Positions 52,959 to 57,025 of a stretch of 64,000 bases of DNA are shown one piece after another; the stretch's first letter is position 1; each line of letters starts with the position of its first letter. The stretch comes from an uncultured Anaerolineae bacterium (lineage in GTDB: Bacteria; Chloroflexota; Anaerolineae; Anaerolineales; Villigracilaceae), in contig CAIJPN010000113.1 in NCBI GenBank assembly GCA_903822545.1, positions 1 through 64,000 on the forward strand, given 5' to 3'. The notes under the pieces are model-generated. The model ran no database searches and had not been told where the DNA came from. It saw only the letters and a program-made list of their open reading frames with translations. A program made the position numbers and the translations under genes.

Positions 52959-54656
52959 CTAAAACCCCAACTCCTTCAAAATCTGGCCCTCGCCTTTTTT
53001 GCCGTTGGCGCCGAGCAATTCACGCCAGAACTGGTCATCGTAACGCCGCGAGCGTACCGGCAGCGGCATCGGGACGCCCCAGCCGAGCAGCAGCACTTCT
53101 TCCTTAGGCTGGAGCCGCGCCAGCATCCCGCGGATGGCCTCCCGCCCCGACAGGCCAGAGAGCACGGCCTGGATGTCAAGGTCATCACCCAGCCAGCCGC
53201 TGATGCGCGTGCCCAACTGCGACATGACCTCGTCATAGATTTGTGAGGGGCGCTGATCCACAATCAGCAGGGTGACGTAGTATTTGCGCAGCTCGCGCGC
53301 GATGGTGGCGAAAGCGGTCTGTGCGGCCATTTCGCGGTTAAGCAATTTATGGGCTTCCTCGACCACGATGATCAGCGGGCGCGGTTCCGAAGCCCCGTGC
53401 GAGCGGAAGGCGTTGGTGCGCTTCTCCCAGGCTTCGCGGATTTTGCGCGTCAGCAGGTTGGAGACCAGCAGGTAGTCCAGGTCGCTTTCGTTGTCGCCAA
53501 ACGACAAAACCACATGCCGCCCGGCCTCCAGCGCGTCGATAACCTGTTTGATGCTATCGGCGGCAGGTTTTTCAACGATGTAGTGCTTGTTGAACAGGCG
53601 GCGCAGTTTGTCGTGCAGGCCCTCGGCGGCGGCCACATTGACGCCGTTCGCCAGCGCCCAGGCGGCCACGCTTTCGGGGTGCGGCTGCTTCTTGATGCGG
53701 CCTTTCTCATCCTCGACTTCGATTTCCTCGCGGTTCATCTCTTTGAAAGATTGGAACCAGTTGTCGCGGAAAGTGGTCATCAACGCATTTAACGTGGTGG
53801 GAGTCGTCTCTTTGAGATTCAACTCGCGGCTGAGCATTTCGATGTCGGATGGAGCGATATCGCCCATAGCGATTTCAAGGTTGAAATCGGGCGTGTTCGC
53901 CCCGCGAATCATCGCTCCGGCTCCCAGCCCGACCACCTGGATCTTGTTCCTGAACTTGGTCTTTAATCCAATCACTTGCATTTTCGTGTCGGATGCGATG
54001 TCGTCGAAGCCGTATTCGTTGTGCATATCCAGCACCAGCACCGAGGCCTTGTTGTGATGCATCAGCCCGGCCAGCACCAGCCGTGTTAAGAAGGATTTGC
54101 CGGTGCCGGTCGCGCCGAAAACGCCCGAGGAGCGCTGGACGAATTTATCCAGGTTGATACAAACGGGGTGGCCCTGCTCGCGGGTGTAGCCGATGATAAA
54201 GTTCCCATCCTTGTCCGGGTCGCCGAAAATCGCAGCGATGTCGGCCTGGTCGGCCAGCGAAACCGGGGCGTGATGCAGCGGGACGGTTTTCACCGGGATG
54301 GGGCGAGGGTCTTCGCTGTGTTCGGCGCGCCAGAGTTTGTATTCGGGGGTGCCCGGCTCGGGGCCGCGTTCCAGCATCAGGGCGGGCAGGATTTCCAGGT
54401 TGGTATAGAGCGTCTGCCCGTGCAGGGCTTTGGCCAAGGCCGGGTGCAGCCGCGTTTCAGATTGTTCATCTGCAAAGCGCGGGTCGGTCGCACCCAGATT
54501 CAGGTCGGTAACCAGCCCGTAGAAGCGGTAGTTGCCGCTGTCGATGACGACAAAGCCGCCTTCCTGCACATCCAGCGGGTCAACGCTGAGACGGGCAGAG
54601 AAGGACTCTTTCAATCCACCGCCGATGATGTAGCCGATTTTTTGGTTGTTTGCCAT
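52959..54656 (-). CDS. herA: HerA-like DNA-translocating ATPase
   Basis: This 565-residue protein starts at ATG 54656 (AGGAGA five bases before). The N-terminal HAS-barrel covers about 1-100 (IGYIIGGGLKESFSARLS). The FtsK/HerA ATPase core has Walker A GATGTGKSF near 172, a Walker B-like SVLVLDMHNEYGF, a second acidic motif LIIVVEEAHKLLNRE and the VDQRPSQIYDEVMSQLGTRI sensor region. HerA forms a hexamer that pumps DNA and stimulates the NurA nuclease in end resection. A NurA gene and a HAS-barrel gene lie upstream on the same strand. The GxxExxY element now separates it from them, ending about ten bases from its start. Confidence 0.92.
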   Translation of the reverse strand: MANNQKIGYIIGGGLKESFSARLSVDPLDVQEGGFVVIDSGNYRFYGLVTDLNLGATDPRFADEQSETRLHPALAKALHGQTLYTNLEILPALMLERGPEPGTPEYKLWRAEHSEDPRPIPVKTVPLHHAPVSLADQADIAAIFGDPDKDGNFIIGYTREQGHPVCINLDKFVQRSSGVFGATGTGKSFLTRLVLAGLMHHNKASVLVLDMHNEYGFDDIASDTKMQVIGLKTKFRNKIQVVGLGAGAMIRGANTPDFNLEIAMGDIAPSDIEMLSRELNLKETTPTTLNALMTTFRDNWFQSFKEMNREEIEVEDEKGRIKKQPHPESVAAWALANGVNVAAAEGLHDKLRRLFNKHYIVEKPAADSIKQVIDALEAGRHVVLSFGDNESDLDYLLVSNLLTRKIREAWEKRTNAFRSHGASEPRPLIIVVEEAHKLLNREMAAQTAFATIARELRKYYVTLLIVDQRPSQIYDEVMSQLGTRISGWLGDDLDIQAVLSGLSGREAIRGMLARLQPKEEVLLLGWGVPMPLPVRSRRYDDQFWRELLGANGKKGEGQILKELGF

Positions 54657-54665
54657 GAAATCTCC

Positions 54666-54693
54666 TAAACACAAAGGGCACGAAGGTCACAAA
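54666..54693. repeat. Inverted repeat, left copy, flanking the GxxExxY gene
   Basis: 28 bases beginning TAAACACAAAGGGCACGAAG. The right copy at 55111-55138 is its reverse complement with a single mismatch. It ends two bases beyond the gene's stop codon. Confidence 0.9.
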
Positions 54694-54695
54694 GG

Positions 54696-55106
54696 TTAAA
54701 TGACCATTCGTTTGATGCCGTCTTTCAGATGGGGAACATTAAAGTTTATAAGAAAACCAAGCCGAAGCCCGGAAAGGCGCAGATAGGTCATTAATTGTGC
54801 TTCGAAGACCGGATTCATTTTTTCGACGGCTTTCAATTCAGCAAGAACGCATTTTTCAATACGCAAATCCAGCCTTAAACCCGATTCGATTTGCTCATCT
54901 TCAAACATAATTGGCAAAATGACTTGTGTTTCCACAAACGCGCCATTTTTTCGCAAAACATGAACCATGGCTGTTTCATAAACTGATTCCAGTAAGCCTG
55001 GGCCGAGCACGGTATGGACTTTGTATGCCGCATCGAGCACCGTTCTGCCGACACGTTCGATTTCAAGTGGTACAGGCTGGAAGATTTTCTTGAGTTGCGC
55101 AGGCAT
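54696..55106 (-). CDS. GxxExxY protein, PD-(D/E)XK nuclease superfamily
   Basis: This is a 136-residue protein of the PDDEXK_3 / GxxExxY family. The name motif is GLLESVY (near residue 37); the nuclease-like motif is LDLRIEKCVLAELKAVE (Asp near 79, then Glu-x-Lys), followed by MTYLRLSGLRLGFLINFN. The biochemical role of the family is not established. The gene fills the space between two 28-bp inverted repeats almost exactly. The only plausible Shine-Dalgarno (GAAGGA) lies inside the right-hand repeat, ten bases from the ATG. It interrupts the NurA-HAS-HerA operon. Other possibility: an accessory nuclease subunit of that complex. Confidence 0.88.
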   Translation of the reverse strand: MPAQLKKIFQPVPLEIERVGRTVLDAAYKVHTVLGPGLLESVYETAMVHVLRKNGAFVETQVILPIMFEDEQIESGLRLDLRIEKCVLAELKAVEKMNPVFEAQLMTYLRLSGLRLGFLINFNVPHLKDGIKRMVI

Positions 55107-55110
55107 AAAT

Positions 55111-55138
55111 TTTGTGTCCTTCGTGCCCTTTGTGTTTA
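55111..55138. repeat. Inverted repeat, right copy, flanking the GxxExxY gene
   Basis: Reverse complement of 54666-54693 with one mismatch. It supplies the TAA stop (55138-55136) of the HAS-barrel gene and the ribosome site of the GxxExxY gene. Confidence 0.9.
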
Positions 55139-55723
55139 AAGAACTTCCCCTAGGGCACCCAAAACGCTCATAAGTGTAGGGTAATCATCCCGCAGAAGTG
55201 TAATCAACTCCTGTGTTGCTTTTTCTTTCCACGCGGGGTCTTGCGCCGCGCCTGCCTGTTGGATGTGCGCGGCTAAAATCTCTCCAATCGGGGCGTCTTT
55301 GGCCCTGAGAATGTGGCGGAAGTAGCCAAATTTGCCGGCGCTGGTAAATCTGGCCAGTTCTTTGTCATCACACAGGTAGATGACATCCAGGCTGAGGGGC
55401 GGGCGCGGCGGGAGCAGGTGGAAGATCCTACCATCCTGTTCGTAGCCCACCGAAAGCACGGACATTTCCACCGGGACGATGCGCCGCTCGCGGTTGTCGC
55501 GCATCACTTCCTCGCTGACATGTTCGGCGGTGACGAGTTGGCGCACCAATCCGTCATCGTCGATGTGGATGTCGTAGATCAGGCCGTAGACCTGGTAGCC
55601 GTTCCCGAGCGGGGCGCGGACGAGCGCGCCAAAGGCCGGGGCGTCAAACTGCGAGACGGAACACCCGGCGATAAAGCCGGTTGTCCCGGCGCGGAGTAAA
55701 CGTCCGATTTCAATGGTTGGCAT
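55136..55723 (-). CDS. HAS-barrel protein of the HerA-NurA operon
   Basis: This is a 195-residue protein from ATG 55723 (AGGAGA eight bases before). A beta-barrel-like N-terminal part (IEIGRLLRAGTTGFIAGCSVSQFDAPAFGALVRA) resembles the HAS domain found at the N-terminus of HerA. The C-terminal half is helical. A helper or adaptor role between NurA and HerA is likely by position (inference). Its stop codon is formed by the terminal repeat of the GxxExxY element, so its original C-terminus may have been altered. Confidence 0.75.
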   Translation of the reverse strand: MPTIEIGRLLRAGTTGFIAGCSVSQFDAPAFGALVRAPLGNGYQVYGLIYDIHIDDDGLVRQLVTAEHVSEEVMRDNRERRIVPVEMSVLSVGYEQDGRIFHLLPPRPPLSLDVIYLCDDKELARFTSAGKFGYFRHILRAKDAPIGEILAAHIQQAGAAQDPAWKEKATQELITLLRDDYPTLMSVLGALGEVL

Positions 55724-55747
55724 AGGTGGATCTCCTACCCCACCCTG

Positions 55748-55793
55748 CCTCCCCCAAATGAACGGATGAACTTCGCGGATCATTGGGGGGAGG
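55748..55793. repeat. GC-rich hairpin repeat in the NurA-HAS gap
   Basis: A 14-bp stem with one mismatch (CCTCCCCCAAATGA with TCATTGGGGGGAGG) and an 18-base loop. It lies between two genes of one operon and is similar in core to the other CCTCCCCCAAA hairpins. Confidence 0.65.
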
Positions 55794-55822: not shown

Positions 55823-57025
55823 TTAAAAATGTGTTCTTCCGGGCAAATCTTTGGCGGATTGTTTGTAGGAGCCGTCATCGGTGTCTTCACCGGCGCGGCG
55901 CAGTTCCATGCTGAGTAGCTGTTCGATCTGGTTTTTCTCTTCAAACGAGACGACGGCGGTTTCATGGGCGCGGTGCAGCAGGTAGGGATAGGGTTTTGCG
56001 CCCATCATGCGGCACTGACTGACGAGAACCGCGTGCAACTGCCCCAGTTTTTGGGGGTCATCGGCCACCCATTTGGGGATTTCGACGCGCACGGGCCAGG
56101 GGCGGCCTTGTGTGCCAGCGTTCAGGTAGAAAAAGTGAATGGCGAGCACGCCTTTGTAATCTTTTTCAGATTTGGCTTGCAGGGCAAAGACTGCTGAACG
56201 TTCGCCGGGGGCTAGCATGGGGTTTTTGCGGTTGCCAAACAGCCAGCGGTCAGAGACGCCGCGCAGGGGATGGATATTGCGCAAATTTTCCACTTGCGCC
56301 ACATCGCCAATCGCCATCAGTTCGAGCAGGCGGATGACCAGGTCCGCGGCGGGTTTGTCAACGTAACCGGCAGTGACCACCCCGCGCGTTTGCAGGCGGG
56401 AAAGGACGGTTCGATATTTGGACAGGCTTTCGGCAAAGGCGGCGGCATCTTCCCCGCTGGCAGAGCCCCATAGTTCGATAGGCCCATCGGTGAAGGTGAT
56501 GATGGGGGTTTCGTCAACGGCGAAGCTGGCAGCCAGTTCGTCGAGCTTGGAGCGTTCGCGCAGGTCGCGCATCAGGGCTACCATGCCTTCGGAGAGTGGT
56601 GCGCCGGATGCGGTGGTAAGTTGTTCGTCGAAGAGCAGGTCAGAGTCGGTGAAAATTTGGGGCGCGGCGCCCGAGTTCAGACGCAGGATAATCGCTCCGA
56701 CGTTGATCAGGCCAAATTGGATGGAGCTGTGCCGGTCCGGGTTGATCTGCGAACCATCAGCGGCGATTAAAACTGCGTTTAACGGCAAGGCAGGCGGCAG
56801 GGCGTGAAAATCCAAAGGTTCGTTTAACGGCAGGGCGCAGCGCAGGGCGGGATCCGCTGTTTTGGCGGTTTCCACTTTGTAGCGTAATCCATCCAGGTTA
56901 TTGGCATGTTCGTAGAACAGCCTTAACGCGGTCATACGCCGTTCCTCGAGCGTTTTTTTGCGCTGTTGGGCGGTGGCGCCGATTTCACGGATTTTTTCGT
57001 ATACTTGCTGGAAGTCAATGGTCAT
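55823..57025 (-). CDS. nurA: NurA-domain nuclease
   Basis: This is a 400-residue protein. The NurA domain begins with VLIAADGSQINPDRH (about 85-99, the first metal-binding Asp), and continues with ITFTDGPIELWG (second Asp), the RLQTRGVVTAGYVDKPAADLVIRLLEL helix region and a late HAVLVSQCRMMGAKPYPYLLHRAHETAVV block. NurA is a 5'-3' exonuclease/endonuclease that works with HerA in DNA end processing. It is the first gene of the leftward operon NurA - HAS - (GxxExxY) - HerA. HerA-nuclease pairs also occur as antiphage systems, but this arrangement alone does not show that. Confidence 0.9.
   Translation of the reverse strand: MTIDFQQVYEKIREIGATAQQRKKTLEERRMTALRLFYEHANNLDGLRYKVETAKTADPALRCALPLNEPLDFHALPPALPLNAVLIAADGSQINPDRHSSIQFGLINVGAIILRLNSGAAPQIFTDSDLLFDEQLTTASGAPLSEGMVALMRDLRERSKLDELAASFAVDETPIITFTDGPIELWGSASGEDAAAFAESLSKYRTVLSRLQTRGVVTAGYVDKPAADLVIRLLELMAIGDVAQVENLRNIHPLRGVSDRWLFGNRKNPMLAPGERSAVFALQAKSEKDYKGVLAIHFFYLNAGTQGRPWPVRVEIPKWVADDPQKLGQLHAVLVSQCRMMGAKPYPYLLHRAHETAVVSFEEKNQIEQLLSMELRRAGEDTDDGSYKQSAKDLPGRTHF

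Follow-up and report, generated by a model that had tools for sequence, protein, structure and literature searches.

A 473-nt unit with a GxxExxY nuclease-like gene between palindromic arms in an Anaerolineae genome: a candidate minimal mobile cassette

The closest described systems to the unit considered here are REPIN/RAYT and the intervening sequences (IVSs) of rRNA genes. According to excerpts of the REPIN/RAYT study, hairpin-forming inverted repeats are found genome-wide as gene-less doublets and also beside a dedicated enzyme gene, the RAYT enzymes within one genome differ, and a co-evolution of repeats and enzyme is proposed (PMC3116915). The IVS in the 23S rRNA of Coxiella is 428 nt long and has a 28-bp terminal stem; tandem heptamers precede its S23 ORF, and the excerpted text proposes a mobile origin (PMC4990558). 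We analyzed a 64,000-nt stretch of DNA (hereafter, the window) from an uncultured Anaerolineae bacterium, in which a gene of the GxxExxY family lies between two inverted arms. As in the REPIN/RAYT excerpts, inverted palindromic repeats occur at the GxxExxY gene together with dispersed gene-less doublets, and the GxxExxY copies of one genome differ from one another, as RAYT enzymes do. The enzyme described there, however, is a Y1 (HUH) tyrosine transposase, whereas here it is a PD-(D/E)XK protein, the arms in the window are arrays stepped at roughly 9 nt, and the palindrome encloses the gene. With the S23 IVS, as excerpted, the unit shares a length of approximately 430–470 nt, a stem of approximately 28 bp, one small ORF and short periodic repeats. 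It differs from the IVS in that the window protein matched only PF13366 in Pfam and not S23/PF05635, the step is 9 nt instead of the 7 nt (heptamers) of S23 loci, and the unit lies between two protein genes, outside 23S rRNA. It resembles MITEs and insertion sequences in being short, in having inverted repeats and in occurring both with and without a gene, but it contains no known transposase, no target-site duplication was seen, near-identical copies are absent, the 28-nt core of its arms recurs in only one other place of the genome, and the genes have strongly diverged. The best reading by analogy is that the GxxExxY cassette would work like REPIN/RAYT and the IVSs, while being, as tested, a member of neither.

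In the portions of the literature found, GxxExxY appears only in passing: the protein is named in an algal virus gene list (PMC12085832), a reverse-transcriptase survey reports a GxxExxY match in the position expected of a cas4 gene (PMC8934634), and family accessions appear in PMC10053308 and PMC9756366. The accessible portions of the openly licensed literature on GxxExxY, S23/IVS, REPIN/RAYT and repeats yielded no description of a link between gene and arms. Among the matches listed for 12- and 13-mers of the repeat in the literature, there was no title on prokaryotic repeats.

The features of the locus are as follows.

52959–54656, minus strand: HerA-like ATPase (DUF87, HAS-barrel), downstream neighbour (profiles; orthologues in relatives)
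54666–54698, plus strand: downstream arm of the unit (inverted-repeat search and sequence)
54696–55106, minus strand: GxxExxY gene, 136 aa, PD-(D/E)XK nuclease-like (TIGR04256 and PF13366 profile matches)
55106–55138, minus strand: upstream arm of the unit, 9-nt-step array (inverted-repeat search and sequence)
55136–55783, minus strand: 215-aa protein, upstream neighbour (open reading frame)
55823–57025, minus strand: NurA-domain protein, next gene upstream of the 215-aa gene (PF09376)

The two arms are 33 nt each, 91% complementary and 407 nt apart, giving a unit of 473 nt. Their ungapped inverted-match score was 25, whereas 300 dinucleotide shuffles of 54400–55400 reached 13 at most, and they show a 9-nt periodicity (CACAAAGGG CACGAAGGT CACAAAGG). 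The unit fills the whole gap between the 215-aa gene and the HerA-like gene, both on the same strand as the GxxExxY gene. The TAA stop codon of the 215-aa gene forms the outer end of the upstream arm; the downstream arm ends just short of the likely herA ribosome site on its outer side and overlaps the GxxExxY stop codon on its inner side. The original prediction of a GxxExxY gene between 28-nt inverted repeats was thereby confirmed, with the 28-nt core sitting inside the 33-nt arms. The inverted arms are real, but the notion of a fixed 28-mer repeat had to be given up: the arms are an array, and its sequence varies between lineages. No target-site duplication was seen by eye at the unit, a reading limited by divergence. 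Rfam gave no match within the window at the gathering score, and neither Pfam nor NCBIfam matched the 215-aa protein at E 0.001.

The GxxExxY protein scored 129.4 bits against TIGR04256 (cut-off 35) and 125.6 bits against PF13366 (cut-off 22), and no other Pfam or NCBIfam family was matched. G37, E40 and Y43, which make up the GxxExxY motif, were invariant across 27 aligned members, as were D80, E90 and K92; we take D80 and E90-x-K92, among the PD-(D/E)XK positions, to include the catalytic residues. In an AlphaFold model (pLDDT 92.3), the nearest structure found by Foldseek was SSO0001 (4ic1; E 0.012), presumably a Cas4 protein, and VIA aligned the two with a Z of 9.8 over 98 residues at 3.3 Å (next Z, 7.8). 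Both searches returned further PD-(D/E)XK nucleases, and no PDB sequence gave a sequence-profile match at E up to 10. The predicted fold and the D...ExK motif are common to SSO0001, lambda exonuclease, Hjc and the GxxExxY model; GxxExxY differs from these DNA nucleases in being smaller and tied to its own palindromic arms. To our knowledge, the PD-(D/E)XK fold is not usually found acting alone as a mobile-element enzyme. dN/dS was 0.03–0.19 in the seven of nine GxxExxY pairs that gave a value, with synonymous change near saturation in some, and these ratios show purifying selection on the GxxExxY genes. Longer GxxExxY-matching frames of 528–571 aa, with a weaker score, apparently belong to a separate protein type (G004:C20:120437, G274:C34:82131, G018:C12:1634, G027:C12:260004, G135:C64:21145, G304:C10:39854, G103:C5:426906 and G002:C1:314252).

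A nuclease fold, as predicted by the model, and the presence of several GxxExxY copies per genome in relatives would suit a defence or addiction module in which the nuclease harms rivals or unprotected DNA. Against this reading, the cassette contains no partner gene, no PADLOC or PHROGs family was matched at E 0.01 (PADLOC covering systems described by 2023), and matches numbered 0 in 50,697 phage records and 7 in 72,556 plasmid records. A scan of viral contigs gave 56 pattern hits, among which there were no confirmed relatives. We rejected a phage, plasmid or defence link of GxxExxY on these results and regard a defence or addiction role as highly improbable.

The original prediction raised the question of whether repeats flank other GxxExxY copies, and they do so more commonly than at cross-paired or control flanks. 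Among relatives, inverted arms reached p<0.05 against cross-paired flanks at 22 of 33 loci (35 loci, of which 34 were used and one was then lost to a short flank), and a second set of relatives gave 31/47 loci in 15 genomes (one of 48 dropped for a short flank). Public genomes gave 44/76, with 4/62 at control flanks taken 600 nt out; four of the 80 public loci were dropped for short flanks, and the 80 were the best among 581 confirmed hits of a search that started from eight aligned sequences of a single branch, so that they are not a random sample. Ten of the 80 titles were Chloroflexota, the phylum of the window, and the others included Planctomycetota, Bacteroidota, Acidobacteriota, cyanobacteria, Parachlamydiales, Verrucomicrobiales and Proteobacteria. 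The arms of the two archaeal public records were below significance (L192, p 0.058; L169, p 0.55), and over the three sets significant arms were lacking at roughly one third to two fifths of the GxxExxY loci. The best tandem lag was 9 in 24/35 relatives' loci and 8 or 10 in eight more, compared to lag 9 in 5/28 and lag 8 or 10 in 1/28 of their control flanks; in the public set the preference for lag 9 was weaker than in relatives (30/76 vs 10/62 controls). The usual arm core was CRCRRAG/T, although arm sequences vary between loci and core-less types exist, such as the GATTNCCATGATT type (L006, L239 and L245). CRCNRAG occurred inward at least twice on both sides at 51/76 public and 32/78 relatives' loci, and in the everted arrangement at 7/76 and 2/78, respectively. 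Paired arms agreed by 80% in register and by 40% when shifted by 9 nt (125 loci used out of 163, four being lost to short flanks and scores <16 left out), the register itself having been picked by alignment. Framing by a register-matched palindrome is therefore a property of the majority of the loci tested, and a cassette made up of the gene and its arms is well supported.

The genome of the window contains six GxxExxY genes. Inverted arms were present at p<0.02 against cross-paired flanks in five of these, that of the window included, and at p 0.08 in the sixth (C67). The arm type differs from gene to gene, and the proteins are 34–46% identical to that of the window in the four of the five other genes that were aligned, none of which is a recent copy. 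Absence of the 28-mer from the rest of the genome had been named as evidence against the original prediction; it recurs, with up to three mismatches, at one further place in the 5.5-Mb genome (C144:4130–4157), where it forms one of the two arms of an inverted pair without a gene; the outer TTTA of this pair gives the stop codon of the neighbouring frame. A third inverted pair, found with a looser pattern, lies in frame within an hsdR-like gene on C21 (L014 1501–1688, G000:C21). This gene-less array keeps the frame and codes for TTKDTKSTKE, the 9-nt step corresponding to three codons.

We compared the regions upstream of herA in 42 genomes. GxxExxY was present in nine and S23, a four-helix-bundle family, in six (four by tblastn, G002 and G008 by family match), which adds to the original prediction that a second element family occupies the herA gap elsewhere. 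In the 700 nt upstream of herA, the repeat core was present on both strands for all nine herA-adjacent GxxExxY copies; copies at this place without the repeats had been put forward as evidence against the unit. In 18 of the 42 genomes the 215-aa gene lay within 700 nt upstream of herA, and the gap then held GxxExxY in six (482–603 nt), S23 in three (468–526 nt) and neither in nine (29–176 nt). Among these nine are the close relatives G011 and G019, as well as G036, which kept a gene-less arm pair. The empty sites proposed in the original prediction thus exist as GxxExxY-less gaps, both before herA and at a second site described below. A tree was built from 116 GxxExxY proteins (118 columns, bootstrap unsettled, public set thinned to every third). 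Of the nine copies labelled as herA-adjacent, eight fell in a 12-row clade with support 99/90 and the ninth joined it with 97/5; L268, unlabelled in the tree, is herA-adjacent too. Because most herA-adjacent copies form one clade, vertical descent explains much of this distribution. Nested in the clade are two copies sited elsewhere, L263 between frames that, from their translations, we take to be sdhD-like and sdhA-like, and L258 beside a presumably EamA-like frame. Both have CACRAAGG-type arms, like those of the window, and a move could have run in either direction.

These observations bear on whether the nuclease is simply a host gene that serves the HerA–NurA operon, with the arms forming an mRNA hairpin processed like an rRNA IVS. 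The shared strand in the window, the purifying selection, the nine genomes with GxxExxY before herA and an anatomy like that of the Coxiella IVS (28-bp stem, 428 nt, in the excerpted text of PMC4990558) are compatible with such a role. A host function fits poorly, however, with the nine of 18 operons that retain the 215-aa gene and have neither element, with the further three that have S23 instead, with GxxExxY copies at unrelated genes, and with the in-frame stops in two of six copies at the second site. We also looked for RNA-level selection on the arms, and rejected it: on the transcribed strand, G·U mismatches numbered 227 and A·C mismatches 263 (p 0.11). Since the arm mismatches show no G·U bias, RNA processing is not taken as the main reading, and we consider a host gene with regulatory arms quite unlikely.

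The second site is intergenic and was found in six congeneric species. Two (G091 and G155) carry a GxxExxY gene with CACGAAT-type arms, and four (G100, G330, G132 and G162) carry another GxxExxY gene with CACAGAT-type arms, those in G132 and G162 being the copies with an in-frame stop. Between G091 and G100 the flanks are identical at 480/500 and 483/500 positions, whereas the proteins are 58.6% identical. The best relative in the set of the first protein was L252, with CACGAAT arms, and that of the second was L253, with CACAGAT arms, both from one other genome, G018. Among three genomes of sister genera, two had 62 and 184 nt where the cassette would be, and the third gave no match. No target-site duplication was seen by eye here either, divergence again limiting the reading. 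The gene and its arms were thus swapped together at one site.

Could the repeats instead be an independent family, into which GxxExxY elements home as a target? In the second group, a short piece beyond the right arm starts with TTCGTGGCTAAA and resembles the right end of the first type; its position outside a cassette of the other type, and the different element families in the herA gap of different genomes, would be in keeping with homing. Against homing, arms differ in type between the genes of one genome, arm similarity follows protein kinship (see below), each swapped protein is closest to a distant protein having the same arm type, and the arms are complementary in register beyond mere array likeness. 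Homing into pre-existing repeats therefore appears very unlikely, and a unit of gene plus own arms is preferred.

Across 123 loci with open frames and an arm score of at least 16, protein identity correlated with arm similarity (Mantel r 0.37, 0/2000 permutations), and it did so in relatives-versus-public pairs alone (r 0.38, 0/1000 permutations). These correlations show that gene and arms diverge together. Dispersed arrays were then compared with gene content for 301 genomes from the phylum of the window. Of these, 47/59 with GxxExxY and 21/242 without it contained the pattern CRCRRAGNNCRCRRAGNNCRCRRAG, and 2608 of its 2853 hits were in GxxExxY genomes; the pattern was derived from arms in some of the 301 genomes and the public set, so that the test is not blind. 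Read backwards, it gave 45 hits in 20 genomes, compared to 2853 in 68. Counted by family (at least two hits), dispersed arrays occurred in 12/20 families with GxxExxY and in 3/61 without, and once GxxExxY was known the 9-nt arrays were independent of S23 (p 0.69 and 0.77, 301 genomes). The tested 9-nt pattern was missing from 12 of the 59 GxxExxY genomes. At pattern loci of relatives, an inward pair within 150 nt was found in 11/29 and the opposite order in 1/29. These data indicate that, at the genome level, dispersed arrays depend on the GxxExxY gene.

The gene-less arrays outnumber GxxExxY genes in many genomes and some genomes are array-rich without a GxxExxY match, as would be expected if an unlinked transposase moved the arms as a MITE-like repeat, with GxxExxY as a passenger. 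In G017, moreover, several array copies (L278–L283) lie inside a MITE-like unit found at several places, with terminal repeats GGGAGTGYCTAA around a central hairpin of 9-nt step; of seven array stretches compared, at least five have this one frame with its own terminal repeats. Some dispersed arrays therefore multiply as passengers of an ordinary MITE, and we rejected the repeated arrays of G017 as proof of movement. In genus g89, the gaps with gene-less arrays were too diverged and nested for insertion ends to be read exactly. As an account of the arms in general, a MITE-like origin is unlikely: arrays follow GxxExxY over the 301 genomes in a comparison that covered GxxExxY and S23, arm sequence tracks protein kinship, no target-site duplication was seen, and gene and arms were swapped as one.

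The best reading of the 473-nt unit, with a probability of roughly 0.6, is in our view a mobile cassette with palindromic arms, similar to IVSs and REPINs, in which the nuclease acts on the arms of its own cassette. The two arms form one long palindrome, which would extrude as a hairpin or cruciform; the nuclease may recognize the stepped core typical of its lineage and cut the extruded palindrome, after which repair or replication could copy the cassette, or a gene-less arm pair, into intergenic gaps, often inside operons, where it would do little harm. The original suggestion of a selfish element, or of a nuclease acting on its own repeats, has thereby become the best reading, and we still infer mobility from comparison, which strongly suggests it. 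No excision of the cassette was seen in the genomes compared. Action of the nuclease on the arms, selfishness and the route of movement are likewise presumed. The cassette is a good candidate to rank among the smallest self-spreading DNA elements, and a nuclease moving its own palindrome would place it, if true, among the smallest autonomous mobile elements known. This reading also provides a testable role for the GxxExxY family and links it to dispersed intergenic repeats.

The S23 genes (TIGR02436) offer a parallel. Arms at p<0.05 were found in 18/30 S23 loci, and the best lag was 7 or 14 in 23/30, compared to 1/27 controls. One 7-nt pattern was present in 33/89 genomes with S23 and in 15/212 without; in genomes lacking GxxExxY the figures were 17/42 and 14/200, and in GxxExxY genomes 16/47 and 1/12, the latter difference not being significant (p 0.15). 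Unstratified, GxxExxY also correlates with the 7-nt pattern (p 0.005), but within either S23 class the pattern was independent of GxxExxY (p 0.60 and 0.66). The backwards-read 7-nt pattern matches another 7-nt-step type and was found only in S23 genomes (19/89 vs 0/212), and is therefore not usable as a control. Each repeat type follows its own protein, the 9-nt type GxxExxY and the 7-nt type S23. We tentatively propose, at somewhat short of even odds, that prokaryotes carry minimal mobile elements of a class of their own, each with a small protein that reads a fixed-step palindrome (9 nt for GxxExxY, 7 nt for S23); the window unit would be a member, rRNA IVSs the rRNA branch of the S23 family, and widespread intergenic repeats the gene-less offspring. 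Whether rRNA IVSs are ORF-driven mobile elements, an old question, thereby becomes a matter of comparing two protein families and two steps.

Two further observations concern genomes with unusually many arrays. The six genomes sharing the second site (G091, G100, G155, G132, G162 and G330) each contain 150–393 triple arrays and only two to three GxxExxY matches, with several arm types side by side. G264, G222 and G109 contain 88, 74 and 27 triple arrays, respectively, and no GxxExxY match; loss of the gene, a missed gene or another driver are candidate explanations.
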